From positions 1 to 64,000 of the forward strand of contig NZ_CP081485.1 in NCBI RefSeq assembly GCF_023617305.1: a DNA stretch of 64,000 nt, written 5' to 3'. Of the stretch, positions 10-57,217 are shown one piece after another. A model generated the notes under the pieces. That model worked only from the letters and a program-made list of their open reading frames with translations. It was not told the DNA's origin and made no database searches. A program made the translations under genes and the position numbers. Position 1 is the first letter of the stretch. Every line of letters starts with the position of its first letter. This DNA comes from Methanobrevibacter sp. TLL-48-HuF1 (lineage in GTDB: Archaea > Methanobacteriota > Methanobacteria > Methanobacteriales > Methanobacteriaceae).

Positions 10-3000
10 ATGTTAAATAATTCATCAGATAAAATCAAAAAGGAGTTTGAAAACTTACGTAATGAACTTTTAGATTTAACTTTAAGAAATCAGCTTCTTA
101 ATTTTAAAACCAGAGCCAGAACAATTACTATTTCAAATCAATCACCAATTAACATTTATCAGACATTAGTTTTGCAAAATAATAAAATGTATTTTGTAGC
201 TAATAAAAAAGAGAAAAAAGAGGAAAAATCAGGATTTTCAATTTGGGATCATGCTCCATTTGATCTTTCAAGGTTCACTGATGGAGATAAAACATTATCT
301 ACAGATTTAACTCCTAATGAACTTCAAAAAAGATTGTTTTATATTAATAACCAAGCTAAAACAATGTTGCAGGAACAAGGTTATAATATTCTTTATTTGG
401 CTGTCGGATTTTTAGAATGGAGAGATAATACCAAACCAAAACAGGTAAATCATGCTCCATTAGTTCTTATTCCAGTTGCAATGGAGCGTAAAAAAGTAGG
501 TAAATCATTTAATTTAGAGTGGACAGGAGAAGATATTCAAACAAATATATCTATTAAAGCTAAATTAAAAGAAAACGGTATTGATTTTCCGGATTTTGAA
601 TTTAAAAAATATGGTGAAGCTATTGACCATTATTTAAGAGAAGTTAGGGATTCTGTTAGAGGAATGAATGAATGGAAAGTTAATACTAATATAGCTTTAG
701 GTTTCTTTAGTTTTACCAAGTTTGTAATGTATAATGATTTAAATCCTGAAGCATGGGAAAATAATGTGGATTTAACTAAAAATGAGTTAATACAAGCTAT
801 ATTTAATCCAAGTATTAATGATAAAGAGGCATTTAAGGAAGAAGACATTGATTCCCAATTAGAATACTCTAAAATGTATCAGGTTTTAGATGCTGATTCT
901 TCACAGATTGCAGCTATTCAGGATGTTAAAGTCGGAAGAAATTTAGTTGTAGAAGGACCTCCTGGAACTGGTAAATCTCAGACAATTGTAAATTTAATAG
1001 CTGAGCTTCTTGCTGAAGGAAAATCTGTTTTATTTGTCAGTGAAAAAATGGCTGCTTTAGATGTAGTAAAAGACAGATTAACAGGTGTCGGATTAGGTAA
1101 GTTTATATTGGAATTGCATTCACATAAAACAAGGCGTAAAAAATTCTTGAAAGATTTGGAAAAGGCTACAACAGTAAGATCTCAGGAACCAATGAATATA
1201 GATCAGACTATAAGAAAGCTTGAAACATTAAGACAGCAGCTTGATGATTATGCAGAAATTATTCATAAACCATTGTATGAGGTTCAATTATCTGCATTTC
1301 AGTTATATGGTTTAAAAGAAGCAGCTGATGAGCATTTTTCAAGAAGTAACCGTATAATTCCATTAGTCAGGTTTTCTCATCCTGAAACTTTAACTTTAAA
1401 AGATTTGGATGACATAACTATATCTTTAGAAAACCTGGCTGAGTTATATCAGACAATTTCTAAGGAAAATCCATGGAGTAAATGTGCTCCAAAAAGTTTA
1501 CTTCCTGCAGATTTAAGGGAAATCGAGCAATTAATTAATGATACATTACATGCTTTAGATGACTTTTTAGTTGAAAGGGGAAGAGTTTATGATATTTATG
1601 GTATCAAAAAACCAGAGACACTTAATGAATTTGAAAAGTCTCTTTCAGCATTTGATATAATCAGTTCTAAAAATTCTGAATTGATTGATGGTGACATATT
1701 AAAATCAGGAGCCTGGAATAATAACAATGATGATGCTTATAGGTTAATAAAAGAATTGGATAAATATCAAAAAGCAGCTAAATCATTAGACAAATTTAAT
1801 TCAGGTATATTTTCTGCAGATATTGACAGACTGATTGGACAGGTTCAAGAAAGTGCTCATAAGAAATTATCCAGATTATTCGGTAATAAACCTCACATTG
1901 AGTTAGTTGAAAGATATTATCAAGGTCCAGTTCCTAAATCTCCAGAAGATGTTATATTTGATTTGGAACAGGCAAAACAGGTAATTCTTATTAAAAATCA
2001 ATTGGATGCTAATAAATCATTAGCTCGTAAATATTATGGTGATTATTGGCATTTAGGTGCAAACATTAATGATTTAAAAGAAATAGCAAAATGGATGAAT
2101 GAATTCGTAGCTTTAACCCGTGACGGAATCTTTTCACAAAACACTATTGATATTTTATCTAAAGATATGTTTAGTATAAATCCTAAAGAGGATTTGACTG
2201 AATACATTGAATCCGGAAATTTATTTGAAAGTGAACTTAAAAAATTAGAATCTAAATTAAACCCTAGAAGTAAACTGATTTTTAAAAGGGATACTGGAGA
2301 TGTTGCTTTTGAAAAATGGCAGGAACAATTATATAACTGGAGAGGACAATTATCCAGTCTTCATTTATGGTCACAATATTTAAATACTAAAAATGCTTGT
2401 AAAGGAACAGATTCTGAACAGTTTATTGATTCAATTGAAAGAAGAGACATTAAAAAAGATGATGTTAAAGCACTGGTTCAGGGAAACTTTGCAGATTCAT
2501 TATTAAATATTTTATTTGTTGAAAATCAGGAACTGGCTACATTTATTGGAGAATTACATGAAAATAGAATAAAAGAGTTTGAAGATTTAGATAAAAAAAT
2601 ATTATCCCTAAACCGTAAAAGAATTTTCCAAAAGTTAAATAATAATATTCCACAAATATTTGGAGCTACTGAAAATCCGGAAGCTAAAATATTAGCCGGA
2701 GAATTTACAAGAAAAAGTGGGCATCTGCCAGTTAGAAAATTATTGGAAAAAGCTGGAGGAATCATTAAAAGGATAAAACCATGTTTTATGATGAGTCCTT
2801 TATCTGTTGCACAATATCTTGACCCTACAAATGAAGAATTGCAATTTGATGTTGTTATTTTTGACGAAGCAAGTCAAGTTAAACCTGAAGATGCACTAGG
2901 TGCATTTATGAGAGGCAAAACTGCAGTTGTAATGGGAGATACTCAACAGTTACCTCCAACATCCTTCTTTGACCAAATGGCAACTGGTGAAAGTGAAGAA

Positions 3001-6000
3001 GAAGTAGCTACTTCCTTGGATATGGAGAGCATTTTACATTTATGTAAACTGTCATTTCCGGTTAAAATGCTTAAATGGCACTATAGAAGCCGTCATGAAT
3101 CTTTAATTTCTGTTTCAAATAAAGAATTCTATAATAATGAATTATTGGTATATCCTTCTCCGTCTCATGATGATCCGGAACTGGGATTAAAATTCCATTA
3201 TAATCCAAATACTGTGTATGACAGAGGTTTATCATCTGCAAATCATTTGGAAGCTCGTGATGTTGTAAAAGAAATTTTCAATCATTTTGATAAGTATGGG
3301 GATACTAAAAGCTTAGGTGTTGGAACATTTTCTGTTGCTCAAAAAAATGCAATTCTTGAAGAATTGGAAATTGAACGTAAAAACCGTCCGGAATTAGAGC
3401 CATTATTCTCAGAAAATAAAGATGAACGTTTCTTTGTTAAAAACCTTGAAACAATACAGGGTGATGAAAGAGATGTTATCTTAATCAGTGTAGGATATGG
3501 TCATGACCAAGCCGGAAAAATGTCTCTAAATTTCGGTCCATTAAATCAGGATGGTGGGGAAAGAAGGTTAAATGTATTAATTACCCGTGCAAGGGAAAAA
3601 TGTGTAGTATTTTGCAATTTTAAAGCTTATGATATGCATTTAACAGCTAATCCACCATATGGTGTAAAAGCTCTAAAAGAATTCCTGTCATATGCTGAGA
3701 ATTTGACTTTAGGAGCATCACAAATAACTCAACAGTCCAGTGAACCATTTGAAGATGCAATTGCCAGTTTTTTAGCTGAAAACGGTTATACAGTAGATAA
3801 ACAAATTGGATGTGCAGGATTTAGAGTGGATTTGGCTATTGTTGATGATGAAAATCCCGGAAAGTATATTTTGGGAATTACAACTGACGGAAAAATGTAT
3901 GCATCAAGTAAAGTAGCTAGAGATAGAGATAGGTTAAGAGAACAGGTTCTAAAAGGGCTTGGATGGAAACTTTATCATTTATGGTCTACAGATTGGTATA
4001 GAAATAGGGATTTGGGACGTAAAAGATTACTTGAAGCTGTTGAAATAGCTATTAAAGAAACACGTGAAGAGGAAAAACGCAAATCTGAAGAAGCTAAAAA
4101 ACTGGCTGAAAAAAGGAAAAAAGAAGCTGAAAAATTAGCTGAAGAATTACGTCTTGCAAAACAAAAGGAGCTTGAAGAACAAAAAGAAAATGAAAAATCA
4201 ACTTCTGATATTGGTGAGGATGAAAATATTGAAGTTATTCCTCCTGAAGAGGATTTGGAATTTAATGAAAATAAAAATGATTCTTCGGATGTTGAAGATG
4301 ATGATTATTTATTTGAAGGAAATAGTACTGAATCTGAATCTGGAGAAGATGAAGTTTCTGATGTTGAGGTTATTCTTCCTGAGGAAGATGATGATTCTGA
4401 ATTTGAGGAGAGTGTAGTTTCTGATGTTGGGGTTGTTTCTTCTGGGGAAGATGATGATTCTGAATTTGAGGAGAGTGTAGTTTCTGATGTTGGGGTTGTT
4501 TCTTCTGGGGAAGATGATGATTCTGAATTTGAGGAGAGTGTAGTTTCTGATGTTGGGGTTGTTTCTTCTGGGGAAGATGATGATTCTTTAAAATCTAAAA
4601 AAGAAGATTTCTCTGAAGTTAAAGAAGAAAGTTCTCAAGAGTCTATAAATGATGAAACTAAAGATATTAAAGATAAAAATAAATCTAAAAAATCTTTATC
4701 AAAAGGTTTTGGTATTAGTTCAATTTTCAAATCTAAAAAGAAAAATGCAGGTAAGAATACTGAAAAAATAAATGATATTAAATTTAGTAAAAATATTGAA
4801 AATGAAGATGAATTAGATCTTAAAAATGATAAAATTGATTCAAAACCTGAAGAAAAAGCAGAAAATGTAAAAGTTAATGCTAAAAATAGTGATAATGATA
4901 ATATTAATTCTAAAGAGGACGAGTTAAAAGCTTCAGAACCTAAAGAAGATATTAATCGTGATAATGATGATATTGATTCTAAAGAGGACGAGTTAAAATC
5001 TAAAGAAGAGGTTAATGAATCTTTTGATGAAGAAGTAAATCCTATAGAATCAGATAATAAGAAATCTAAAAATAATTCTATTAAAAGTATTTTCTTTGAT
5101 AATGAAAGATTGGAAAACAAAGAACATGGAACAATAGCTAGTGCGATTATTGGTAAATCTAAATTGGAAAAAGAGGAAATTGAAACTGTAGGTGGTGAAA
5201 TAATGGAGAATGAAAATCCTAAGTTACATAGGCCAACTCCTAAGGATGAGTATGTTGTAGAACCTGAAATTATTGATGAAAATTCACAAGATGGTGAGAA
5301 ATTATATGAAAATCTAAAATTTAAATCTAATGTAGATTTAGATGATGAAGATATTCATAATGTAGCTTCTGATATTGTAGCTAATGCTTTTGAAGAAGTA
5401 ATTTCAGATATTAATAATGAAAAAGACATTGAAGTAAATATAATTGATAAAGATAATTATCAAGATTATGATGATGAAAATCAGTATACTCAACAGGATG
5501 ATAATATTTCACAGGAAACATCAACTACATCTACATCTGTTAATCAAGATGATTATTATCAGGGAGTAAGTGGCATTACCAATCCTCTTAAAAAGAACAA
5601 TATTTACCATAAAACAAATGATAATAAAAACAAATCTGTTAAAGATTCTCTTGTTGATTTAAAAAATGAAGTAAAATATATTAATAAATCATTAAAAGAA
5701 ATTGAAAATCCAACACCTGCAGAATATGTAGCTGTAATTGACAGAACTGAAGAATATAATCCAGATGATTATATAACTCCTGAACATGATGAAGATGAGT
5801 ATGTCTTTTCCAATGATGAAACAGAAGAATTAACTTTTGCTGAAGCTGAAGAAAAAAGATATGAACAGGAAAAATTGATGGAAGCACTTAAAAAAGAAAT
5901 AGCTAGTGATGAAAATGTTATTATTCCGATTCATGAAGAGAAAAGAAGACAGCAAATGCAAGATCAAGCTTTGGAAGATATTATTCAAACAGCTAATGAA

Positions 6001-6627
6001 GATTATGTTGAAATTGAAAAGGAAAGATTTAAAAATAACAATACATTAAAAGCATTTGATGATAAAAAACTTCCGGGAAAAGTCAAACTTAAAGATGAAA
6101 TTGCAGAGTATAAACAGGCTGAAGATATTGGTTTAACATCACAGGAGGATTTATTTAAAAAGTCCAGTGAAGAAGTAGCTAAGTCTATTGATAAAATTGT
6201 AAAAATAGAAGGTCCAGTTCATGTTAGTGAAGTTATTAAAAGAGTTAAAGACAGCTGTAATATTAAAAGAGCTGGTGCTAATTTGAAAAAAGCAGTTAAT
6301 GGTGCTATTAGTGCATCTGAAGATGCGGGAAACATTATTAAAATTGGTGACTTTTTATATGATTCTGCAAGCAATGATGTATGCATCAGAAAAAGACATA
6401 AACCTAATATTGATTTAATTTCTGATGAGGAAATAGCTAAAAATATTGAAAGAATTTTAGTTCATAAACAATCAATCTCTGCAAAAACATTACCAAAAGA
6501 AGTTTCAAGGAATTTTGGATTTAAATCAACTTCCAAAAAGACAGCTAATAAAATTAACAGTGTTTTAGATTTAATGATAGCTGATAATAAAGTCAAGTTA
6601 GATAATGATACTCTTGAGTTAAAATAG
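10..6627 (+). CDS. Giant DUF4011 helicase with Vsr-like domain and C-terminal DUF3320
   Basis: Superfamily 1 (Upf1-like) helicase of 2205 residues. Seen in order: DUF4011-like N-terminus (about 10-300, with TLRNQLLNF), Walker A GPPGTGKS at 316-323, Walker B DEAS at 952-955, GDTQQLPP near 976, HYRSRHE near 1024, QGDERDV near 1150 and ITRARE near 1190. A Vsr/MTES_1575-type nuclease-like domain covers about 1248-1335, ending in WSTDWYRNR. An acidic, low-complexity stretch of nearly 700 residues (about 1360-2045) follows, then a DUF3320-like winged-helix tail (about 2052-2200). Family knowledge: the DUF4011-helicase-Vsr order has been reported among antiphage systems (from memory, named Hhe). Odd: the usual nuclease E of the (V/I)ECDG motif is T1291 (GITTDG), although D1274 is kept. 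The acidic spacer makes the protein longer than usual. uvrC starts 9 nt downstream, so co-transcription is likely. Defence or repair role is inferred. Confidence 0.85.
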   Translation: MLNNSSDKIKKEFENLRNELLDLTLRNQLLNFKTRARTITISNQSPINIYQTLVLQNNKMYFVANKKEKKEEKSGFSIWDHAPFDLSRFTDGDKTLSTDLTPNELQKRLFYINNQAKTMLQEQGYNILYLAVGFLEWRDNTKPKQVNHAPLVLIPVAMERKKVGKSFNLEWTGEDIQTNISIKAKLKENGIDFPDFEFKKYGEAIDHYLREVRDSVRGMNEWKVNTNIALGFFSFTKFVMYNDLNPEAWENNVDLTKNELIQAIFNPSINDKEAFKEEDIDSQLEYSKMYQVLDADSSQIAAIQDVKVGRNLVVEGPPGTGKSQTIVNLIAELLAEGKSVLFVSEKMAALDVVKDRLTGVGLGKFILELHSHKTRRKKFLKDLEKATTVRSQEPMNIDQTIRKLETLRQQLDDYAEIIHKPLYEVQLSAFQLYGLKEAADEHFSRSNRIIPLVRFSHPETLTLKDLDDITISLENLAELYQTISKENPWSKCAPKSLLPADLREIEQLINDTLHALDDFLVERGRVYDIYGIKKPETLNEFEKSLSAFDIISSKNSELIDGDILKSGAWNNNNDDAYRLIKELDKYQKAAKSLDKFNSGIFSADIDRLIGQVQESAHKKLSRLFGNKPHIELVERYYQGPVPKSPEDVIFDLEQAKQVILIKNQLDANKSLARKYYGDYWHLGANINDLKEIAKWMNEFVALTRDGIFSQNTIDILSKDMFSINPKEDLTEYIESGNLFESELKKLESKLNPRSKLIFKRDTGDVAFEKWQEQLYNWRGQLSSLHLWSQYLNTKNACKGTDSEQFIDSIERRDIKKDDVKALVQGNFADSLLNILFVENQELATFIGELHENRIKEFEDLDKKILSLNRKRIFQKLNNNIPQIFGATENPEAKILAGEFTRKSGHLPVRKLLEKAGGIIKRIKPCFMMSPLSVAQYLDPTNEELQFDVVIFDEASQVKPEDALGAFMRGKTAVVMGDTQQLPPTSFFDQMATGESEEEVATSLDMESILHLCKLSFPVKMLKWHYRSRHESLISVSNKEFYNNELLVYPSPSHDDPELGLKFHYNPNTVYDRGLSSANHLEARDVVKEIFNHFDKYGDTKSLGVGTFSVAQKNAILEELEIERKNRPELEPLFSENKDERFFVKNLETIQGDERDVILISVGYGHDQAGKMSLNFGPLNQDGGERRLNVLITRAREKCVVFCNFKAYDMHLTANPPYGVKALKEFLSYAENLTLGASQITQQSSEPFEDAIASFLAENGYTVDKQIGCAGFRVDLAIVDDENPGKYILGITTDGKMYASSKVARDRDRLREQVLKGLGWKLYHLWSTDWYRNRDLGRKRLLEAVEIAIKETREEEKRKSEEAKKLAEKRKKEAEKLAEELRLAKQKELEEQKENEKSTSDIGEDENIEVIPPEEDLEFNENKNDSSDVEDDDYLFEGNSTESESGEDEVSDVEVILPEEDDDSEFEESVVSDVGVVSSGEDDDSEFEESVVSDVGVVSSGEDDDSEFEESVVSDVGVVSSGEDDDSLKSKKEDFSEVKEESSQESINDETKDIKDKNKSKKSLSKGFGISSIFKSKKKNAGKNTEKINDIKFSKNIENEDELDLKNDKIDSKPEEKAENVKVNAKNSDNDNINSKEDELKASEPKEDINRDNDDIDSKEDELKSKEEVNESFDEEVNPIESDNKKSKNNSIKSIFFDNERLENKEHGTIASAIIGKSKLEKEEIETVGGEIMENENPKLHRPTPKDEYVVEPEIIDENSQDGEKLYENLKFKSNVDLDDEDIHNVASDIVANAFEEVISDINNEKDIEVNIIDKDNYQDYDDENQYTQQDDNISQETSTTSTSVNQDDYYQGVSGITNPLKKNNIYHKTNDNKNKSVKDSLVDLKNEVKYINKSLKEIENPTPAEYVAVIDRTEEYNPDDYITPEHDEDEYVFSNDETEELTFAEAEEKRYEQEKLMEALKKEIASDENVIIPIHEEKRRQQMQDQALEDIIQTANEDYVEIEKERFKNNNTLKAFDDKKLPGKVKLKDEIAEYKQAEDIGLTSQEDLFKKSSEEVAKSIDKIVKIEGPVHVSEVIKRVKDSCNIKRAGANLKKAVNGAISASEDAGNIIKIGDFLYDSASNDVCIRKRHKPNIDLISDEEIAKNIERILVHKQSISAKTLPKEVSRNFGFKSTSKKTANKINSVLDLMIADNKVKLDNDTLELK
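4384..4587 (+). repeat. 63-bp tandem repeat, three exact copies plus a partial, inside the helicase gene
   Basis: Three consecutive identical 63-bp units start at 4384, 4447 and 4510, with 15 bp of a fourth at 4573. A diverged partial unit precedes them at about 4345-4383. Each unit encodes 21 residues (DDDSEFEESV, then VSDVGVVSSG and E), so changes in copy number keep the reading frame. The array lies in the acidic spacer of the DUF4011 helicase. Exact identity suggests recent expansion, and copy number may vary between strains. Confidence 0.95.
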
Positions 6628-19144: not shown

Positions 19145-22100
19145 ATGCTTAAAAGTAAAATTTTAATAATTTCAACTATGATTTTATTCATACTATCTAT
19201 TTCGGCAGTTAATGCAGAAAATGTAACTTCCAGTATGGTTAATGACACAGTAAATGATGAGTTTCACATAACTGATGGGAAAAATTTAAATGCCACTTCT
19301 AATGTGTTATATGATGGAAAAGATGGAAGCGTTTTAGAAAATAAAAACAGTAATAATGCTTTTTTTAAGTATGATGGGAATAATACTGTTGTATCTAAAG
19401 AAAAGCCTAAAATGAATGTAATTGCTGAGGATAGTATAATCTTTGGTGAAAATTTAACTGTTAAAGTTGAATTACCTAAGGATGCTAATCCTAGTTGGGT
19501 GCTGATGTCTGTTGGTGAAATTTATTATTATGTTAAAATTGACGATGAAGGCGTATCATTATGGAATATGACTGATTTAGAAGCAGGTATTCAATATATT
19601 AAAATTGGATATCGGGGCAATAATAAATATGAATCAGTTGAAGTTTTTCATACTGTAAATGTTATTAAAGCTAATCCAAATCTTAATGTATTTATTAAAG
19701 ATGTTAACTATGGTGAAAATTTAACTATTTATGCTACTTTAAAAGGTGTAAATAATACTAATTTAACCGGTAATGTAATTGTAACAATTAATAATAAAAA
19801 TTACTATGTAGTGGTTATTAACGGTAAGGGAAATGTTTCTGCTGATAAGCTGCCTGTGGGATTGTATAATTTCAGTGCTACCTGGGCTGGAAATGATAAC
19901 TATAATGGAACTGATATTTCTGGCGGTTTTAAAGTTAATAAAATAGATCCTGCACTTGTTGTTGATGTTAAAGATATTAAAGTTGGGGAAAACGCAACTA
20001 TTAGTGTTAATTTAGATAGTGATGCTACAGGCAATGTAACTATTACGCTTGATAATCAGAACTATACAGTAGCTATTAATGAAGGTCAGGCAATTAAAGT
20101 AATAGGCGGACTTAAAGTAGGTGATTATAATGTAGCTGTTAAATATGGTGGTGATAACAATTATAATGCAGTAAATGTTAATGCAACTTTTACAGTATCT
20201 ATAATGGTTCCTGCAATGGATGTAATTGTTAATAATATTACATTTGGCCAAAATTTAACTGTTGATGTTATTTTACCTAAAGAAGCTAGTGGTAATGTAA
20301 CTATTACTATTGATAATAAAGATTACATTTCTGTTGTTAAAAATGGTAAAGCCAGCCAAGTTATTTCTAATTTATCTTCTGATAATTATACACTTTTAGT
20401 TAAATATGGGGGCAATAAAGAATATGCTAGTGTTAATTCTACTAAAAACATTAATGTAGCTAAAGCATCACCAAAGTTTGAGGTAGCTATTAAAAATGTT
20501 GATTATGGTGAAAATTTAATTATTGAGGTTATATTAAATGGTGCAAATAATGATAAATTAACAGGCATGGTAGATGTGACGATTAATAATAAAAATTACA
20601 CTGTGGGAGTTGTTAATGGTAGAGGCATAGCTATTGGTGATAAATTACCTGCGGGAGTTTATAATTTTAGTGCTGCTTGGAGCGGAAATGATAATTATAA
20701 TGGAACGAATACTTCAGGTAGTTTTAAAGTTAATAAAATAGCTCCTAGAATAGATGTACTTGTTAATGATATTGTTTTTGGCCAAAATGCAATTGTTAAT
20801 ATTGTTTTGCCTGAGGATGTTAATGATAATGTCATTTTTTCTGTTGATGATGTTGAAAAAACTCTTGCTATTGTAAATGGTAAAGCTAATTATGCTGTTA
20901 AAGATTTAGATTCTGGCAATCATATGATTATGGTTAAATATGAAGGTAGTGATAAATACACTTCAGTTAATGCAACTAAAAATATTAAAGTAGCTAAAGC
21001 AAATGCCTCTTTAAATGTCATTGTTAATGATGTTGATTATGGTAATGTATATGTTATTGACACTGTTTTAACTGGTGTTAATAATGCTAAATTAACTGAA
21101 AACATATTTGTCACTATTAATAATAAAAATTACACTGTAGAAGTTGTTAATGGTAAAGGTACTCTTTTAGGAGATAAATTAGGAGCAGGTGTTTATAATT
21201 TTAGCGCTATTTGGGATGGAAATGATAATTACAATTTAACTGCTGATTCTGGCAAGTTTAAGATTAATAAAATAAATTCAACAGTTAGTGTTGGTGCTGA
21301 CGATATTAGAGTTGGTGAAAATGTAACTGTCACAGTTTCTTTAGCTAGTGATACTACTGGAAATGTAACCATTAGTGTTGATAATCAAGTTTATAATGTA
21401 GCTATTGAAAATGGCAGTGTAGTTAAAACGATATCTGATTTTAAAGCGGGTATTTATGATGTATTTGTTAAATATATAGGTGATGACAATTATAATAGTG
21501 CTCAAAACACAACTAAATTTACTGTATTAAAAATATCTGATTATAATATGGATGTTGCTGTTCCTGAAGCTAAAGATGGAGTAAATTCTACTGTTGTTGT
21601 AGATTTGCCTGAAGATGCAACTGGAACCGTCACTGTTGAAATTGACGGTGAAAATTACACTGCAAATGTAACTAAGGGAACTGCAAAAGTAAATATTCCT
21701 GGATTGGGTGTTGGAGAGTATAATATCACTACAACTTACTCTGGTGATGCTAAATATGATTTGATGACTAAAAAAGGAAACATAACAGTTGTCCCTAATT
21801 TTAATTTAAGTGCTGATGATGTTGCAATGTTTTATCATGATGGAACTCCTTTAGTTGCTAAATTAACAGATTCTCAAGGTAAACCAATAGTTAATGCTAC
21901 TATATACTTCAATATTAATGGTGTGGACTATGCTAAATCTACTGATGCTAATGGTACTGCATCTATGGGACTTAATTTAGAATCTGGTATATATCCAGTA
22001 ACTGTAACTTATAATGGATCTGATATATGCAGCAAAATCTCCAAAAATATCACTGTAACTATTAATCCAAGTATCATAGCTAAAAATTTAGTTAAAATGT

Positions 22101-22831
22101 ATCAGAACGCTACAAGATTTTACACTAAATTTACTGACAGCACAGGAAAAGCACTAGCTAACACTACTGTTAAATTTAACATCCATGGAGTATTCTACAC
22201 TAAAACAACTAATAAAGATGGTGTAACTGATTTAGGTATTATGTTAAGACCTGGAACTTACATTTTAACTGCTTACAACCCTGTAACCGGTGAAGAAAAA
22301 GGATTTAACATAACAGTAAAATCATTAATTGCGGCTCATGATATAACTAAATATTATATGAATGCATCTGCTTTTCAAGCAACTATCTATGATAAAAACG
22401 GATCCTTAGCAGTAGGTAAAAATGTAACATTTAACATCAATGGTGTATTTTACACTAAAACAACTGATTCAAATGGTGTTGCAAGCTTAGGAATAGCTTT
22501 AAGACCAGGAAACTATACCATTACAACAATGTATGATGCTTTGGATGTAGGTAATAATGTAACTGTTATTTCGACTTTAGTAACTAAAGATTTAGATATG
22601 AAATATTTAGATGGCAGCAATTTCACTGCTTTAACTTTAGATGGTCAAGGTAAACCATTAGCTAATCAAAATGTATCATTTAATGTAAATGGTGTCTTAT
22701 ATCACAAAGTTACTAATAAAGATGGTATTGCAAGCTTAGGAATCAGATTAATGAGTGGAAAATACATTATTACATCTTACTGGAATGACTTCCAAACAGG
22801 AAACACAATAATTATAAGAGATTTTAATTAA
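19145..22831 (+). CDS. Adhesin-like protein 1 (Ig-like repeats plus C-terminal cassette)
   Basis: Secreted surface protein of 1228 residues. Seen: a signal peptide (K-rich start, hydrophobic IISTMILFILSISAVNA, cleavage near residue 24), a short Asn/Asp-rich region, then about nine Ig-like repeats of roughly 90 residues (about 88-880). These are recognisable by FGENLTV, GNVTITIDN and YNFSAxWxGNDNY. From residue 887 there are four different repeats of about 85 residues that are shared with the other two adhesin-like proteins. There is no C-terminal membrane helix and no sortase motif. Many N-x-S/T sites suggest N-glycosylation. Family knowledge: such adhesin-like proteins are abundant in gut Methanobrevibacter and differ between strains; binding partners are mostly unknown. 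The gene is monocistronic with its own strong ribosome binding site. Confidence 0.88.
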   Translation: MLKSKILIISTMILFILSISAVNAENVTSSMVNDTVNDEFHITDGKNLNATSNVLYDGKDGSVLENKNSNNAFFKYDGNNTVVSKEKPKMNVIAEDSIIFGENLTVKVELPKDANPSWVLMSVGEIYYYVKIDDEGVSLWNMTDLEAGIQYIKIGYRGNNKYESVEVFHTVNVIKANPNLNVFIKDVNYGENLTIYATLKGVNNTNLTGNVIVTINNKNYYVVVINGKGNVSADKLPVGLYNFSATWAGNDNYNGTDISGGFKVNKIDPALVVDVKDIKVGENATISVNLDSDATGNVTITLDNQNYTVAINEGQAIKVIGGLKVGDYNVAVKYGGDNNYNAVNVNATFTVSIMVPAMDVIVNNITFGQNLTVDVILPKEASGNVTITIDNKDYISVVKNGKASQVISNLSSDNYTLLVKYGGNKEYASVNSTKNINVAKASPKFEVAIKNVDYGENLIIEVILNGANNDKLTGMVDVTINNKNYTVGVVNGRGIAIGDKLPAGVYNFSAAWSGNDNYNGTNTSGSFKVNKIAPRIDVLVNDIVFGQNAIVNIVLPEDVNDNVIFSVDDVEKTLAIVNGKANYAVKDLDSGNHMIMVKYEGSDKYTSVNATKNIKVAKANASLNVIVNDVDYGNVYVIDTVLTGVNNAKLTENIFVTINNKNYTVEVVNGKGTLLGDKLGAGVYNFSAIWDGNDNYNLTADSGKFKINKINSTVSVGADDIRVGENVTVTVSLASDTTGNVTISVDNQVYNVAIENGSVVKTISDFKAGIYDVFVKYIGDDNYNSAQNTTKFTVLKISDYNMDVAVPEAKDGVNSTVVVDLPEDATGTVTVEIDGENYTANVTKGTAKVNIPGLGVGEYNITTTYSGDAKYDLMTKKGNITVVPNFNLSADDVAMFYHDGTPLVAKLTDSQGKPIVNATIYFNINGVDYAKSTDANGTASMGLNLESGIYPVTVTYNGSDICSKISKNITVTINPSIIAKNLVKMYQNATRFYTKFTDSTGKALANTTVKFNIHGVFYTKTTNKDGVTDLGIMLRPGTYILTAYNPVTGEEKGFNITVKSLIAAHDITKYYMNASAFQATIYDKNGSLAVGKNVTFNINGVFYTKTTDSNGVASLGIALRPGNYTITTMYDALDVGNNVTVISTLVTKDLDMKYLDGSNFTALTLDGQGKPLANQNVSFNVNGVLYHKVTNKDGIASLGIRLMSGKYIITSYWNDFQTGNTIIIRDFN
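21803..22828 (+). repeat. Four-repeat C-terminal cassette, copy in adhesin 1
   Basis: Four protein repeats of about 85 residues at residues 887-1228. Each contains a core like G(K/N)PLAN..VTFNINGVFY followed by (T/N)(D/K)(S/D)NG and L(R)PGxYIIT. The repeats differ from each other, but each matches the repeat at the same position in the adhesins at 37380-38375 and 56198-57214. For example, repeat 2 always has NPVTGE/NSVTGE/NLVTGE and repeat 4 always has MKYLDGS and ends in GNT. Confidence 0.9.
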
Positions 22832-35381: not shown

Positions 35382-37379
35382 ATATTGGTTGCATTGATTG
35401 TTGGTTTGTTAACAATTAATGGTGCATTTGCAGAAACAGCTGATTCAATGCCTGAAATTGATCAGGGTACTGTTTCAGGTGATGCAGAATTAATAAGCAC
35501 AAACCCTTGGAGTACCACAGGAAGTCTTGAATATGCAATTCCTGATGGTGTGCAGGAAATTACTTCTGCTAAGGTAATTGTAAATATCTATTCAGGTAGT
35601 GGAAATTCGGAAACCTATGCTTTACACTCAAATACTACATTAAACACAGCAGGAAATAGTAAGGTATTGGGATATGAAAATTTAACTTATGTTGGTAATC
35701 AGGCTGGTGATTCAAATGTGTATGTGATTAATAATCATACTACAAAACAGTATTCTGATTATCAAATGGTTTATGATGTTTTAGGTGATTTAAAAGATTT
35801 AGGTCCTAATTCAAAAATTAAAATAGATGTAACTAGCACTCCATTTGAAGGTAAAGCTTTTGATGGACGAATAAAAATGATTGGATTATTTATTGCATAT
35901 AATGACGGGGACAGCGACAGTATCACATATTGGTTAAATGTAGGAATGTCATGGACTCAGGGCACTGTAAGCAATTTAATTTATACAAAAAATTACACTG
36001 GTGACATAGGTGAAGTTAACTTTGAAGCAATAATGTTGTCTAGCAATAACGGAGCATATAAGTTTAATGATAATCAACTGTTTATTCCAGAAGACACTAT
36101 AGTAAAAGATTATTATATATATAATAAATGGGATGTTACAGATTATTTCCAAATAGGAGATAATAATAATTTTACATATTCTGCACTATCTCAGGGATAT
36201 GGTTCTATTAAATCAAGTGTTCAATTACTTAAAGTAATTAACAGAGAATCTCCTGTAGTTACTACTAATATTGCTTCAGAATATAAAAATTCTATTTATG
36301 CTGGTGTTACTAATAATTTAACTATTACAGTTAACAGCATTAACAAGGATTTAACTAATGTAACTGTTTATGTTTATGATAATGGCCGTGTTGTTGGTTC
36401 TTATTTGGTTGATTTTGTAAAAGCTAATTCTTCCAAATCAGTAAATATAATAGATTCTTTTATTAGACCAATTGATGAAAATACTGTTTTAGGAAACAAT
36501 AATACCAATGTTGTTTACAGAGTTATTGTTGAAGATAAAAACGGTATTTTAAATGACACCAACAGCAGTAATTTTATGGTGGTTTATAACGGTAATTTAG
36601 GAAAAGATTTGGCATATCCTGCCATGAATGCTACAATTACACGTGTTTATGATATTAGTGGTGATGTAATTATTTTAAATAAAGATGATTCATCATATTT
36701 AGGGTCCAAGAGTACAAATGGAAGCGACACATGGAATATTGATTTTAAAGGGGAGTTAAAAGAAGGATTGTTATATGTTTCATATAACTGGAATAAGCAA
36801 GCTGATGTAAGTGATTGGATAGTTACTTTCAATAATAAAATCATTACACCAATTGTCCATTACCGTGACCAGTCTAATTTAGGAGCATACGGCAAACATG
36901 GCTACGGACTTGCAGTTTATAATGTTACAGATTTAATCAATAAAGGATTAAATACTTTTACTTTAAATAAAACAAGTGGTTTAACTGCTGTTTATCCAAG
37001 TTCTTTATTACTTTTAACTAATAATGAAAATGGCGCTAGTAAAACTGTTTATATAAGTGAAGGTGCGGATTTACTTTCTAAAACAAATAATAAAAATTTG
37101 GATGTCGGAGCTTATACTAAATTTAACATTGACTCCACTTCAATGATTAATTCCACATTATATGTTTTTGCAGCAGGCGGACAAAAAAATGAAGGAAACA
37201 TTGTTTTTAATGGTGAAATAAAAAGTGATGTATGGAATAAGACTTCAAATTCAATTGATTATTATACTTTCAACACCGATGGTTTAACTAAAGACAATAA
37301 CACTGTATTTTTCCAGTCTACAGGTTCAACTATTCTTGCATTACATCAGATACTTGTTGTAGAACGTGAAAACATACAG

Positions 37380-38375
37380 TTAACAGTTGAAGATCTTGAA
37401 AAATATTATGGTGGATCAGAAAGACTTAATGCTACTTTAAAAGATGGTGCTGGAAATCCGATAGCTAATAAAACTATTACATTTACTGTTAATGGTAAAA
37501 AATACAATAAAACAACTGATTCCAATGGATTTGCATCATTGGTAATTGGCTTAATGCCTGGAACATATGATGTAACAACAATGTACGGCAATATGTCTGT
37601 TTATTCAAAAGTTGTTGTTAAAACTACTATTGAAGGTAAAGACCTTGTTAAAATGTATAAAAATGAAACTCAATTCTTTGCAACTTTCTTAGGCACTGAT
37701 GGCAAACCGTTATCTAACACTGATGTAACATTTAACATTAATGGTGTATTTTACACACGTCAAACAAATGAAAATGGTGTAGCTAGGTTAAATATTAATT
37801 TAAGACCTGATGTGTATATTTTAACTGCTATTAATTCAGTTACTGGTGAAAGTAAAGGATTTAATATAACTGTTAAACCTTTAATTGAGTCAAATGATTT
37901 AACCAAGTACTACAGAAATGATTCTAATTTTGAAGTAAAAATTTACAATAAAGATGGAACCCTTGCAATAAACAAAGAGGTTACATTTAATATTAATGGT
38001 GTATTCTATCAAAAAACCACAGACAGCAACGGTATAGCTAGGTTAGGTATTGCTTTAAGACCTGGAAATTATATAATTACCACTATCGTTGACGGTTTGG
38101 ATATAGGTAATAATATAAATGTATTGCCGACTTTAGTAACAAGTGATCTTTCCATGAAATATCTTGACGGCAGCAACTTTACTGTGCAGACATTAGACGG
38201 TCAGGGCAATCCGTTAGCTAAGCAAAATATATTATTTAACATAAATGGTAGATTCTATTACAGAGTAACTGATGATGAGGGTATGGCATCATTGAATATA
38301 AGATTAATGCCTGGAGAGTATATCATTACTTCGTATTGGAATGATTTCGAAGTTGGAAACACAGTAAAAGTAGAT
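37380..38375 (+). repeat. Four-repeat C-terminal cassette, copy in adhesin 2
   Basis: Four repeats of about 83 residues, starting LTVEDLEKYY, IEGKDLVKMY, IESNDLTKYY and LVTSDLSMKY. They contain VTFNINGVFY-type cores and end GNTVKVD. Position by position they match the cassettes of adhesins 1 and 3. Confidence 0.9.
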
Positions 38376-38385
38376 TAAAATTTAA

Positions 38386-52852: not shown

Positions 52853-55800
52853 TTGGTTAAATATGTTAATAAGTCAATTGTACTTTTTTTAGTATTTTTG
52901 TTATTATTAATAATTGTTCCATCTACTTTTGCTAGTGATGCTGTTGATAACCAGACAGTCGTTAGCAGTGATGAACAAATTGAAATATCTGCTGTTAATG
53001 ATGGCGGAGTTATTTATAGTCATAGTGGGGATACTTCTGATGTTCTTACTGGTTCTAATGACATCTATTTCAATGCATCTGCAGACAGTGATGGAAAAGG
53101 AACACCGTCTAGTCCATATAAGTACTTGCAGTATAACAGATTAACTTCAGGATGTACTGCTCATTTTGCAGACGGTACTTATAATTTAGATGCTAAAAAA
53201 GGAATATATTCATCTATGACACTCATTGGTCAAAGTGCTCAAAATACTATAATTAAGTTTAACGGTATTGCATTTAATGTTGGAACTGGTTATACTTTAA
53301 CTTTAAAAGATTTGACTTTAAATCATGCTACTGTTAAGAATTTTGGTACTGTCAGTGCAACTAATGTGATATTTAAAAATGGTGTAGCTGTTGATGATAC
53401 AGGTTATGGATATAACAATGCATATGGTGGAGCTATCTACAATTATGTTAACACTGATTATTCAGGTTATGTAACTAATACACCTAAAAATACATTATAT
53501 AACTGTACATTTTTAAATAACAGTGCAATGTATGGTGGAGCTATTTACATGCCATATGGAGAATTGTCTATTTCAAACTGTAAGTTTATTAATAACTCTG
53601 CACATTGGTTTGGTGGAGCTATAGCTTCTGAAAATGAATGTGGAATTTCTATTACCGGCACAACTTTTGAAAACTGCAGATCTGTAGATGATGCTGGTGG
53701 AGCTATTTATGCGTTTTCTACTGATTTGGAAGTTAAGGACAGTATTTTCAATAACTGTTCTGCAAACTTTGCAGGAGCTATCTGTAGTTTAAATTCTGAA
53801 ATGTTAATTTCTTATTCTAATTTTACAAATAATCTTGCCAGATATGAAGGTGGAGCTATATATAAGATGTATGGTTCTGGAACTGTTATTAAATCCAATT
53901 TTACTAAAAATGCAGCTTTAAATGGTGGTGCATTATTTAGTGATAACTGTACTTCTTTTGAAATTAGAAACTCTGAATTTGTATCAAATGCAGCAACCGG
54001 ATTTGGAGGAGCAATATTTTCCAATGCAAATCCTAAATTGACTGTTGATGGAGTTATATTTAGTGATAATAAAGCCAGTTACAATGCTAATATCTTAAAT
54101 CAATCTAATTTCAGCCCTATTGTATCAAGCAGTAACAATTATTCATTATTTGTTTACAAATCATTATTTAATGGTACATTACCTGCCAGATATAATTTAG
54201 CTGAACACGGCTTTGTAACTGAAGTTAAAGATCAGCAAGCTTCAGGTAACTGCTGGGCATTTGCAGCACTTGCTTCTCTTGAAACCTGTGTTTTAAAAGC
54301 AAGTAATAAAACATTCAATTTCTCTGTAGAAAATATGAAAAATTTAATTGAAATGTATTCTTCTTATGGATGGCAAATGGAAACTAACAATGGCGGATAC
54401 AATGGAATGCCGATGGGTTATTTGGCTAGCTGGTTAGGTCCTGTTAATGCTACTTTAGATCCGTTTGATGATAAGGGTGTTTTATCTCCGGTTTTGGATA
54501 GTGAAATACATATTCAAAACATTTATGTTTTGCCTGCACGTACAAGTTACACTGATAATGATGCTATAAAAGAAGCTATTTTAAAATACGGCGGATTATA
54601 TGCTTCATATTATCATTCAGCAACATATCTTAACACTAGAACATATGGTTACTATGATCCATACACAGGTAATGGAAACCATGCAATTACTGTAGTTGGA
54701 TGGGATGACAATTATTCAAAAAATAACTTCAATACAAAACCTGCAGGTGACGGAGCATTTATAGTTAAAAACAGCTGGGGAAGTTCCTGGGGAGATAAGG
54801 GTTACTTCTACATTTCTTACTATGATAGAGTTCTATTCGCTGTAAACAAAGATAACCAGGCATTTACCTACATTTTAAATGATACTGTAAGATACACCAA
54901 AAACTACCAGTATGATGTTGCAGGAATGACTGATTACTTAATAAATGGTAAAAAAACTATCTGGTATAAGAATATTTATAATGCAACTGGTAACGAAGCA
55001 ATTGCAGCTGTATCAACATTCTTCAATACAACTGTTGATTACGAAATTTCTATTTATGTAAATGATGTATTGCAGCTTACCCAAAACGGCAGACATGAAG
55101 GAAGCGGGTATTATACCATTCCATTAAAAGAATATGTTCCTGTAGCTGTTGGGGATATCTTCAAAATTGTTGTAAAACTTGCAAATCCTCAAAATGGATA
55201 TGCTGCTGTTCCTATTTCAGAACAGGTTTCAACAACAAGATGTTATTATGCTCCTGGAGTATCATACTTCAGTAATGACGGTAAAAAATGGACAGATTTA
55301 TATGATTACTCAGCTTCAGCTTATAGTCACACATATAATTCTCAGGTAGCCTGTCTTAAAGCATTCACTATCACTGATATACAGAATACAACTGTTACTT
55401 TAAATAACATTGCTCCTAAAGTTCAGGAGTTCAGTGAAATTATAGCTACTGTAACTGACGGTAAAGGCAAAATGGCTAAAATCGGGGAAGTTATTTTCAG
55501 CATTAACGGAACTAATTATACAGCTGGTGTAGTTGACGGTGTTGCAAAGATTAGCGTATACTTTGATGAAGTTGGAGATTATGTAATTTCAGCTAACTAT
55601 AAAAATAACGGATTGTATAACGGATCTTTCGTTCAAAAAACCGTCAGCGTTACCAAAACCGATGTTAATTTAACTATTGATATTGATGATATTGTTTATG
55701 GTGAAAACCCTATAGTTAATATTAATTTAACTTCAGTAGCCTGTGTTAATGTAACAGGTGATGTTGTTTTAACAATCAGCGGCAAAAAATATATTGTTAA

Positions 55801-57217
55801 TGTTGTCAACGGTTTGGCGGTATTTGAAATACCTGAAATGTTAAATGCTGGAGAATATCAGGCTAGTGTATCTTATTTGGGCAGTGAAAAATATAACTTG
55901 GCTAACAGCACTGCTGATTTTACAGTAGCTAAAAAAGAAATCACTATGGATGTAACTGTAGATAAAGATTACAGAGACATAACAGTAAATGTTAACTTGT
56001 CTGAAAAACTTGATGGAAATTTAACAGTTCTTGTAAATAATACACCTTACACATTATCTTACACTAATGGAACAGGTTCATTAATATTAAAAAACTTAAC
56101 TTATGGAAATTATACAATCAGTGCAGTTTTCACAAAAGATAACTACCAGACAGTTAATGTATCTGAAAATGTTGAAATAAACTCCATCAAAACAGTTTTA
56201 GAAGCGGAAAATGTTGTAATGTATTATAAGGACGGTACAAGATTTGCAGTTGTCCTGAGAGATATTTACGGCAATCCGTTAGCTAATATGAATGTAACCA
56301 TTTCAATAAACGGCAGAAACTATGTTAAACAAAGTGATGAAAATGGTACTGCTTCTTTAGGCCTTAATTTGGAGAGTAAAAATTATACTGTTGTTACCAC
56401 ATTTGGCGGAACTTCCAAATACTTCGGAACCAGTTCAAATAACACAGTATCTATTTTATCAACACTCATCAGTAAGGATATAGTTAAATACTACAGAAAC
56501 GGTACACAGTTCTATGCAACTGTTCTGGACTTCAACGGAAATCCGTTAGCCAATACAACTGTTATGTTTAATATCAATGGTGTATTCTACAATAAAACCA
56601 CTGATGAAAATGGTACTGCTAAATTAAATATCTGGCTAAGGCCTGGAAAATATATTATTACAATATTTAATTTGGTTACTGGTGAACAGGCAGGCAATAA
56701 TGTCACAGTATTGTCTAAAATTGTTGAAAATTATGACATGGTTAAATACTATAAAAATGCTTCAAAATTTTCAGTTAAAATCTTAGACAGTCAAGGATAT
56801 CCTGTTGAAGGAACTATTGTAACATTTAACATCAACGGTGTATTTTACTACAAGGAAACTGATTCAAATGGTATAGCTAGTTTAGCTATTAATTTAAGAC
56901 CTGGAAAATATGTAATTACTACTATATATGGTCAGTATGATGTAGGAAACAATGTCACTGTTCTGCCGACATTACAAACTAGCGATTTAAAAATGAAGTA
57001 TCTTGATGGTTCAGCATTCAATGCAAGAGTTGTAGACGGTCAGGGAAATCCATTAGCTAATCAGATTGTTACATTTAATGTAAATGGTGTGTTTTATAAT
57101 AAAGTTACTAATGATGAGGGTATTGCATCCTTAAACATTAAGCTAATGAAAGGGGAATACATCATTACTTCAATATACAATGGATTTGAAACCGGAAATA
57201 CAATTAAAATTCAATAA
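52853..57217 (+). CDS. Adhesin-like protein 3 with beta-helix and papain-type protease domain
   Basis: Secreted protein of 1454 residues. Seen: signal peptide (VNKSIVLFLVFLLLLIIVPSTFA), beta-helix repeats with recurrent GGAIY and F.NNSA (about 60-420), a C1 (papain-type) peptidase with Q461, C467 (ASGNCWAFA), H610 (GNHAITVVGW) and N640 (VKNSWGSSWG), a linker domain (about 690-850), Ig-like repeats (about 855-1110), and the four-repeat cassette from 1116. All papain catalytic residues are present. The start is TTG at 52853: GGAGG at 52840-52844 is its ribosome binding site, and the TTG at 52838 overlaps that site. The target is unknown; pseudomurein peptides or host/bacterial surface proteins are possible. 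Confidence 0.9.
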   Translation: MVKYVNKSIVLFLVFLLLLIIVPSTFASDAVDNQTVVSSDEQIEISAVNDGGVIYSHSGDTSDVLTGSNDIYFNASADSDGKGTPSSPYKYLQYNRLTSGCTAHFADGTYNLDAKKGIYSSMTLIGQSAQNTIIKFNGIAFNVGTGYTLTLKDLTLNHATVKNFGTVSATNVIFKNGVAVDDTGYGYNNAYGGAIYNYVNTDYSGYVTNTPKNTLYNCTFLNNSAMYGGAIYMPYGELSISNCKFINNSAHWFGGAIASENECGISITGTTFENCRSVDDAGGAIYAFSTDLEVKDSIFNNCSANFAGAICSLNSEMLISYSNFTNNLARYEGGAIYKMYGSGTVIKSNFTKNAALNGGALFSDNCTSFEIRNSEFVSNAATGFGGAIFSNANPKLTVDGVIFSDNKASYNANILNQSNFSPIVSSSNNYSLFVYKSLFNGTLPARYNLAEHGFVTEVKDQQASGNCWAFAALASLETCVLKASNKTFNFSVENMKNLIEMYSSYGWQMETNNGGYNGMPMGYLASWLGPVNATLDPFDDKGVLSPVLDSEIHIQNIYVLPARTSYTDNDAIKEAILKYGGLYASYYHSATYLNTRTYGYYDPYTGNGNHAITVVGWDDNYSKNNFNTKPAGDGAFIVKNSWGSSWGDKGYFYISYYDRVLFAVNKDNQAFTYILNDTVRYTKNYQYDVAGMTDYLINGKKTIWYKNIYNATGNEAIAAVSTFFNTTVDYEISIYVNDVLQLTQNGRHEGSGYYTIPLKEYVPVAVGDIFKIVVKLANPQNGYAAVPISEQVSTTRCYYAPGVSYFSNDGKKWTDLYDYSASAYSHTYNSQVACLKAFTITDIQNTTVTLNNIAPKVQEFSEIIATVTDGKGKMAKIGEVIFSINGTNYTAGVVDGVAKISVYFDEVGDYVISANYKNNGLYNGSFVQKTVSVTKTDVNLTIDIDDIVYGENPIVNINLTSVACVNVTGDVVLTISGKKYIVNVVNGLAVFEIPEMLNAGEYQASVSYLGSEKYNLANSTADFTVAKKEITMDVTVDKDYRDITVNVNLSEKLDGNLTVLVNNTPYTLSYTNGTGSLILKNLTYGNYTISAVFTKDNYQTVNVSENVEINSIKTVLEAENVVMYYKDGTRFAVVLRDIYGNPLANMNVTISINGRNYVKQSDENGTASLGLNLESKNYTVVTTFGGTSKYFGTSSNNTVSILSTLISKDIVKYYRNGTQFYATVLDFNGNPLANTTVMFNINGVFYNKTTDENGTAKLNIWLRPGKYIITIFNLVTGEQAGNNVTVLSKIVENYDMVKYYKNASKFSVKILDSQGYPVEGTIVTFNINGVFYYKETDSNGIASLAINLRPGKYVITTIYGQYDVGNNVTVLPTLQTSDLKMKYLDGSAFNARVVDGQGNPLANQIVTFNVNGVFYNKVTNDEGIASLNIKLMKGEYIITSIYNGFETGNTIKIQ
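56198..57214 (+). repeat. Four-repeat C-terminal cassette, copy in adhesin 3
   Basis: Four repeats of about 85 residues at 1116-1454, starting LEAENVVMYY, LISKDIVKYY, IVENYDMVKYY and LQTSDLKMKY. They contain VTFNINGVFY cores and end GNTIKIQ at the C-terminus. Order and repeat-specific features match adhesins 1 and 2. Confidence 0.9.

Follow-up and report, generated by a model that had tools for sequence, protein, structure and literature searches.

An adhesin-like protein with a Cwp84-type C1A peptidase in Methanobrevibacter sp. TLL-48-HuF1

The window (the whole stretch of 64,000 nucleotides of contig NZ_CP081485.1 that was analysed) encodes a large adhesin-like protein with a Cwp84-type peptidase in its central part. 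In the interpretation that we favor, with a probability of roughly 0.55, this protein is a secreted cysteine endopeptidase of the Cwp84 type, with a C1A domain and a lectin-like domain, that an adhesin scaffold presents at the surface of the archaeon and that processes surface proteins. The more general part of this interpretation, a surface protease on an adhesin scaffold that is conserved and probably active, is well supported by sequence conservation and the structural model and agrees with the earlier note on this DNA, whereas the link to pseudomurein drawn there appears weak, given that a surface protein is the substrate of the closest enzyme studied. The shaping of the surface of gut methanogens and their contact with partners are poorly known, and genes of this kind can reach about 20 copies per genome. 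The Cwp84-type identity brings with it a solved structure, a route to assay design and a concrete question, that of surface-protein processing, where earlier work had guessed at pseudomurein turnover.

Gene and domain architecture

The gene (52853..57217, on the plus strand, as are all features below) is an open frame of 1454 amino acids and a stop codon. The start codon is TTG at 52853, with a GGAGG motif just 5' of it, and the start region is also kept in the syntenic orthologue of a sister genome, taken as M. smithii PS. A putative signal peptide, with a basic n-region, a hydrophobic core and an end near TFAS, can be recognized by eye (52853..52942). It is followed by a right-handed beta-helix of Chlam_PMP-type repeats (53048..54112; Pfam, AlphaFold2 and VIA-align, Z up to 29.3), a short and poorly conserved linker defined by column entropies and a dip in pLDDT (54113..54181), the C1A papain-type peptidase domain (54182..54820; PF00112, 4e-21, and fold match to Cwp84), the lectin-like domain PF18560 (54905..55369; 7.2e-22, and part of the structural match to Cwp84), an Ig-like (Big_3_5) region identified by Pfam (55370..56278) and a C-terminal Big_1/MG4-like cassette, the proposed envelope anchor (56279..57214). 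Pfam accordingly places the Chlam_PMP repeats N-terminal, and the Big_1, Big_3_5 and MG4 matches C-terminal, of Peptidase_C1. The order of beta-helix, protease and C-terminal cassette reported in the earlier note is confirmed, but PF18560, between the protease and the Ig-like region, had been omitted. The signal peptide seen by eye, the beta-helix and/or Ig-like repeats and the shared C-terminal cassette are the features by which methanogen adhesin-like proteins are recognized. The AlphaFold2 model of residues 29-845 is confident (pLDDT 91.2, pTM 0.88), with the first 39 modelled residues below 50.

The C-terminal 312 amino acids show 56% and 58% identity to the C-terminal ends of the other two window adhesins, encoded at 35385-38378 (cassette at 37461..38375) and 19145-22831 (cassette at 21887..22819), respectively, both on the plus strand. 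The last 151 amino acids recur, over nearly their whole length and with at least 54% identity, at 33 other places in the genome, the two window adhesins included. The "wall-attachment unit" assigned to this end of the protein is a name rather than a result; the Pfam matches of the protein include no pseudomurein-binding repeat.

The peptidase domain and its active site

The peptidase domain scores 76.6 bits against PF00112, for which the curated cut-off is 20.7, and the ORF translation together with Pfam bears out the complete set of active-site residues previously numbered Gln461, Cys467, His610 and Asn640. Conservation of these residues was surveyed, as had been suggested, in copies from 22 high-quality genomes, each copy being counted where it reaches the column. 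Gln461 of the oxyanion hole (54233..54235) and the nucleophile Cys467 (54251..54253) are both kept in 121 of 121 copies, so that frequent loss of Cys467 is not seen; His610 (54680..54682) is present in 123/123 copies, and Asn640 (54770..54772) is Asn in 115 and Asp in 9 of the 124. The 119 intact copies are only 28-94% identical to the window copy, and 20 of the 432 columns are conserved in at least 97% of them.

These patterns bear on the possibility that the protease domain has no catalytic activity and acts only as a structural or binding module. The nine copies with Asp for Asn would be compatible with such a role, as would the fact that the parts of the literature surveyed report no proteolytic activity for an archaeal member. 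However, Gln, Cys and His are kept in every copy that has the region and, together with the residues beside them, are among the few highly conserved columns, which makes a silent domain highly unlikely. The gene is syntenic in the sister genome taken as M. smithii PS, with 94% identity over the protease and lectin-like domains; the orthologue is the only intact copy there. Between the sister species, the C1 part has a dN/dS of 0.16, indicative of purifying selection.

Relationship to Cwp84 and the region before the protease

The best relative in the PDB is Cwp84, both by sequence, over the protease and lectin-like domains (E = 1.6e-33), and by fold, where the same part of the AlphaFold2 model matches Cwp84 over 379 residues (Z 42.4, 2.2 A). 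The two domains co-occur in 36 of 38 sampled proteins. The structural match to 4ci7 starts at Cwp84 residue 79, inside the Cwp84 propeptide. A propeptide of ~60 residues lying in the groove, as in Cwp84, was not found in the archaeal protein; the beta-helix and the short variable linker stand in its place. Nor is a conserved inhibitory segment seen between the helix and the protease, where conservation starts at the LPxxYDLR stretch.

The beta-helix of the model aligns to solved beta-helix proteins with Z up to 29.3; sugar-acting enzymes and phage tailspikes rank highest among its PDB matches, and it is also similar to the adhesin PfbA. Because beta-helix chains fill the VIA match list, other folds may be hidden. 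From the fold alone, a glycan-binding beta-helix that aims the protease is possible. In the 38 sampled proteins, Pfam calls Chlam_PMP in 18 and Beta_helix in 4. The Methanobacteriaceae copies group as a single clade in the sampled tree; by a crude GG-motif, on which this wider count rests, 30 of 32 of them carry a beta-helix, versus none of 49 others, which carry a short pro-region. The motif G-x-[IVLMTF]-P-x-P, a pattern picked by eye from the same sequences in which it was counted, occurs in the pro-segment of 17/49 relatives outside Methanobacteriaceae (mean of 1.8 and maximum of 5 after shuffling). Its absence from Methanobacteriaceae copies (0/121 and 0/32) says little because the shuffled means are only 1.6 and 0.5, and an earlier pattern failed to separate the groups (6/49 vs 4/32); the pro-segment difference in sequence may be regarded only as a lead. 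Tentatively, and with odds well against it, one might imagine that Methanobacteriaceae gained the Cwp84-type enzyme once and swapped the short inhibitory pro-region for a permanent beta-helix, whereby a substrate-binding helix fixed beside the active site would have taken over control from a removable pro-segment, and the protease would be switched on or aimed by the ligand of the adhesin.

Phyletic distribution and the pseudomurein question

C1 family matches were found in 107 of 138 Methanobacteriaceae genomes, and matches to the lectin-like family in 107 of 151 genomes, an equal number that, like the co-occurrence in the sampled proteins, fits a protease and lectin-like domain that travel as a pair. 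In a scan of named genomes, 53 of the 80 kept loci lie outside the family Methanobacteriaceae. The protease-lectin pair is found in Clostridia, Aminicenantes and one Methanomicrobiales archaeon, and M. acetivorans, included as a control, matches both families. These four, as well as the groups to which the 53 loci belong, are not known to have pseudomurein. A viral origin was considered and rejected: in an IMG/VR scan, with 80 of 83 relatives kept, all 80 matches stop short of the lectin-like domain, and the majority span ~50 residues around the catalytic His.

This distribution weighs against remodelling of pseudomurein, that is, cleavage of the peptide cross-links of the archaeal wall by the protease during growth. 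Such turnover was proposed for the papain-domain adhesins of M. ruminantium, where the M1-C tail might bind pseudomurein (Leahy et al., 2010; PMC2812497), and the window protein, too, is presumably wall-associated. However, it contains neither Peptidase_C71 (Pei, PF12386) nor the PF09373 repeat at Pfam E-values up to 0.1, so that pseudomurein binding through PF09373 was rejected, and no pseudomurein-binding repeat is detected in the 38 sampled relatives at E-values up to 0.001. The seven PF09373 matches of the genome all fall in frames other than 52853-57217, the sole Peptidase_C71 match is at 370439-370657, and a 274-aa frame of the same genome with Peptidase_C71 and a pseudomurein-binding repeat is a better candidate for wall-peptide cleavage. 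Furthermore, 31 of the 138 Methanobacteriaceae genomes, including 15 of the 78 high-quality ones, have no C1 match, so that this protease seemingly is not needed to grow a pseudomurein wall. Cleavage of pseudomurein peptide links, suggested in the earlier note, thus fares poorly and is, in our estimate, quite unlikely.

Proposed function

Cutting of surface proteins, rather than of the wall, is the most likely activity because the nearest relative that has been studied trims the coat on the surface of a gut bacterium: Cwp84 is an S-layer maturation protease that cleaves the surface protein SlpA (PMC4089489). In the proposed mechanism, the beta-helix would hold the enzyme outward and perhaps position it on a glycan, and the C-terminal cassette would retain the protein at the envelope. 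Cys467 could then attack peptide bonds in proteins of the same surface, namely selected adhesin-like proteins and possibly its own chain or, alternatively, in proteins brought close by adhesion; surface proteins would thereby be processed or released, as SlpA is by Cwp84. The specificity need not match that of Cwp84, given that the three positions examined, of the four in the Cwp84 S2 pocket named in PMC4089489, all align to poorly conserved columns, 664, 665 and 667. General maturation of all adhesins is unlikely because genomes with many Big_3_5 domains occur without a C1 match: of the 31 Methanobacteriaceae genomes lacking such a match, 27 still have Big_3_5 (E up to 0.001), and among the 15 of high quality there are 8 with at least 24 such domains.

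The adhesin might instead dock on gut bacteria, protists or host mucus, with the protease cutting surface proteins or glycoprotein backbones of these neighbours for feeding, competition or escape. The resemblance of the beta-helix to sugar-acting enzymes, tailspikes and PfbA fits such an attack, as do the copy-number expansions, with up to 21 C1 matches in some genomes, and the presence of peptidase_C1 on vesicles. Against it, the genome taken as M. smithii PS has a single intact copy, and the closest studied enzyme works on the surface of its own cell; we consider this scenario unlikely. The vesicle observation comes from a 2025 proteome, in which vesicles of M. smithii and M. intestini show an increase in a peptidase_C1 that carries adhesin-like domains (PMC12134236); this peptidase, which may or may not correspond to the window gene, fits surface exposure. 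In M1, genes upregulated by lauric acid are reported to include two adhesins with a cysteine protease domain (PMC5816558).

Comparison with known systems

In Cwp84 of Clostridioides difficile (PDB 4ci7, 4d59), the C1A domain is directly followed by the lectin-like domain, as in the archaeal protein, and both proteins are secreted and surface-located, the archaeal one by prediction. Cwp84 differs in having a propeptide of ~60 residues, compared to the beta-helix of ~350 residues that precedes the archaeal protease, and PF04122 wall-binding repeats, of which there are none among the Pfam matches of the archaeal protein, where Ig-like cassettes are found instead; the column of Asn640 is occupied by Ser in Cwp84 in the sequence alignment. 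PeiW and PeiP, described as peptidases that act at the wall of pseudomurein-containing archaea, are set apart by the Peptidase_C71 domain and binding repeat, which are missing from the Pfam matches of the window protein. The same kind of protein is represented by the papain-domain adhesin-like proteins of Methanobrevibacter ruminantium M1, M. smithii and Methanosphaera stadtmanae (Leahy et al., 2010; Gupta and Seedorf, 2024). The former study (PMC2812497) already described adhesins of M. ruminantium with papain domains, and the latter counted one papain adhesin in M. smithii; the available portions of both neither tie the papain domain to Cwp84 nor treat the protease-lectin pair as a unit. Thus, the kind of protein is not new; what is added here is the single Methanobacteriaceae clade in the sampled tree and, by a crude motif, the presence of a beta-helix in this clade at the position of the short pro-region of other members.

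Domain architecture and C-terminal cassette

The ORF at 52853-57217 (forward strand) encodes an adhesin-like protein of 1454 residues, with a TTG start closely preceded by a GGAGG motif. The Pfam domains are arranged in the order Chlam_PMP repeats, Peptidase_C1 (76.6 bits), Lectin_like (PF18560; 78.7 bits) and a series of Big_3_5, Big_1 and MG4 repeats that extends to the C-terminus. The catalytic set claimed in an earlier note on this DNA, Q461, C467, H610 and N640, is found at exactly those positions of the ORF. The layout described in that note, a beta-helix followed by a protease and a C-terminal cassette, agrees with the Pfam order, except that the lectin-like domain located after the protease had been overlooked; recognition of this domain changed the comparison to be made for the adhesin protease (see below).

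Over its C-terminal 312 residues, the protein shares 56% and 58% identity with the termini of the two further adhesins of the window (35385-38378 and 19145-22831), and the last 151 residues are found at 33 or more other places in the genome, including these two adhesins, with at least 54% identity over nearly the whole query (a lower bound, given that 150 of the 252 candidates were scored). This putative wall attachment unit probably corresponds to the M1-C domain, for which Leahy et al. (2010; PMC2812497) suggested attachment to the wall. Elsewhere in the same genome, the adhesin ORFs near 900145-903522 and 1011123-1014500 (1951 and 2063 aa) share identical domain scores at matching offsets and therefore probably represent a recent duplication. 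At the beginning of the window, a large protein with DUF4011, AAA and REase domains (10-6627) resembles the anti-phage proteins ProA and Hhe, with scores below both curated cut-offs (1320 vs 1500 and 914 vs 2000, in this order).

Spread and active-site conservation in Methanobacteriaceae

Peptidase_C1 (PF00112) is represented in 107 of the 138 genomes of the family (63 of the 78 high-quality ones), and the lectin-like domain in 107 of the 151 genomes in a phylum-wide search. The earlier note had called for a survey of the catalytic residues across strains. Such a survey, conducted on 22 chosen high-quality genomes, each with C1 matches (132 matches, 106 stretches fetched), yielded 130 domain stretches, the copy in the window being left out of the counts. 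The Gln and the Cys are retained in all 121 copies that have these columns, and the His in 123 of 123, whereas the Asn position is occupied by Asn in 115 and by Asp in 9 of 124 copies. The 11 stretches that lack one or more catalytic sites either derive from fragmented genes or are short matches. The 119 copies with all four sites are 28-94% identical to the window domain, and conservation of at least 97% is reached among them in 20 of the 432 columns. Asp replaces the active-site Asn in eight otherwise intact copies (L163, L192, L229, L242, L243, L253, L254 and L255). In genome G037, 18 matches were detected, six of them inside 20 kb, and two proteins of about 2000 aa (L183 3679-9672 and L185 3648-9632) each contain two intact protease domains.

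In the sister genome G041, the subject gene is syntenic, and the protease and lectin-like domains are 94% identical to those of the window copy. Calculated with a Nei-Gojobori script, dN/dS is 0.16 for the C1 part and 0.07 for the lectin-like domain. Synonymous divergence between the window gene and its G041 counterpart (L153 3990-8351) is 0.28-0.64 up to the vicinity of codon 720, where it falls sharply to about 0.08-0.12, and it remains at 0.08 in the adjacent gene, which suggests that the two species have exchanged a stretch here by recombination. A second paralogue, whole in the window genome, is cut down in G041 to a 153-aa remnant (L154 4481-4942), which overlaps an ORF that by eye resembles a restriction specificity subunit.

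Relatives beyond the family

Among the best 80 of 138 relatives in a scan of named genomes, 27 loci are titled Methanobrevibacter or Methanosphaera and 53 come from elsewhere, including Clostridia, Syntrophomonadaceae, Aminicenantes, Synergistota, Thiotrichales and one archaeon of the Methanomicrobiales. In the stretches from these 80 relatives, the complete QCHN set is read in 78 of 88, and the Cys is present in 81 of the 82 with a letter at this column. A maximum-likelihood tree built on the 79 rows with 380 residues or more places the 32 Methanobacteriaceae rows together with the window copy in a single group (support 100/99); the Methanomicrobiales copy lies outside this group, among bacteria, with weaker support. 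As judged by a rough motif criterion (at least two GG[AGSV][ILVF] motifs upstream of the catalytic Cys), a beta-helix-like region precedes the Cys in 30 of 32 Methanobacteriaceae copies, compared to 0 of 49 others; measured from the beginning of the stop-to-stop frame, the Cys lies at a median distance of 446.5 and 121 residues, respectively. Four of the 32 Methanobacteriaceae copies are truncated by a locus edge, and one of these four is among the two that fall short of the criterion. In the Methanomicrobiales protein (L105 4707-8015), the order is reversed, with the protease and lectin-like domains first, followed by regions that by eye look like PKD domains and a beta-helix.

Role of the protease

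Several adhesins with the M1-C domain have been described as carrying a papain domain, and pseudomurein turnover was put forward as their possible function (Leahy et al., 2010). For the adhesin protease described here, this role is less likely, among other reasons because the same genome offers a better candidate at 370439-370840 (reverse strand, L406). The only Peptidase_C71 match of the genome (27.4 bits, cut-off 22) lies there in a 274-aa frame, beside a pseudomurein-binding repeat detected in a frame of equal length; by its domain content, this would be a candidate pseudomurein endoisopeptidase. Of the 92 adhesin protease copies that passed the length filters, 38 were sampled at random; Peptidase_C1 is present in 38 of these, Lectin_like in 36 and Big_1 in 30, and the pseudomurein-binding repeat is listed in none. 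It is also unlikely that the protease serves all adhesins in general because Big_3_5 domains persist in 27 of the 31 family genomes without a C1 match; among the 15 high-quality ones, 8 hold at least 24 such domains, with the Big_3_5 counts of this search reaching a ceiling near 35 in any one genome. The enzyme would most likely process or release proteins located at the surface of the archaeon, with the catalytic activity, substrate, glycan binding and anchoring all putative.

In the literature, one papain adhesin apiece is reported in M. smithii and M. stadtmanae, with mention of the lectin-like domain (Gupta and Seedorf, 2024; PMC11532034), peptidase_C1 proteins with adhesin-like domains are raised in archaeal vesicles (Weinberger et al., 2025; PMC12134236), lauric acid raises two adhesins of M. 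ruminantium M1 that contain a cysteine protease domain (PMC5816558), and prokaryotic multidomain C1A peptidases are left aside (Kordis and Turk, 2023; PMC10380794). A 2026 comparison of Methanobacteriota lineages (PMC13135261) counts adhesins, and a term search finds neither proteases nor peptidases in its text.

Comparison with Cwp84

The protease-lectin pair has been noted in Clostridiales and a few archaea, with M. mazei aligned (Bradshaw et al., 2014; PMC4089489); among the search listings and text passages covered, we found no detailed tie of methanobacterial adhesin proteases to Cwp84, the S-layer maturation protease of Clostridioides difficile. Cwp84 is the best PDB sequence match of the window protein (E = 1.6e-33, vs 7.2e-14 for the best cathepsin), and the alignment spans the protease and the lectin-like domain together. 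An AlphaFold2 model of residues 29-845, built from 61 aligned sequences all taken from the window and the fetched loci, has a mean pLDDT of 91.2 and a pTM of 0.88. Cwp84 chains occupy Foldseek ranks 1 to 3 for this model. In VIA-align comparisons, the modelled beta-helix resembles alginate epimerases (Z up to 29.3) and the pneumococcal adhesin PfbA (Z 27.0), and the model matches the Cwp84 proform (4ci7) with a Z of 37.9, starting at Cwp84 residue 79, and mature Cwp84 (4d59) with a Z of 42.4 and 2.2 Å across 379 residues.
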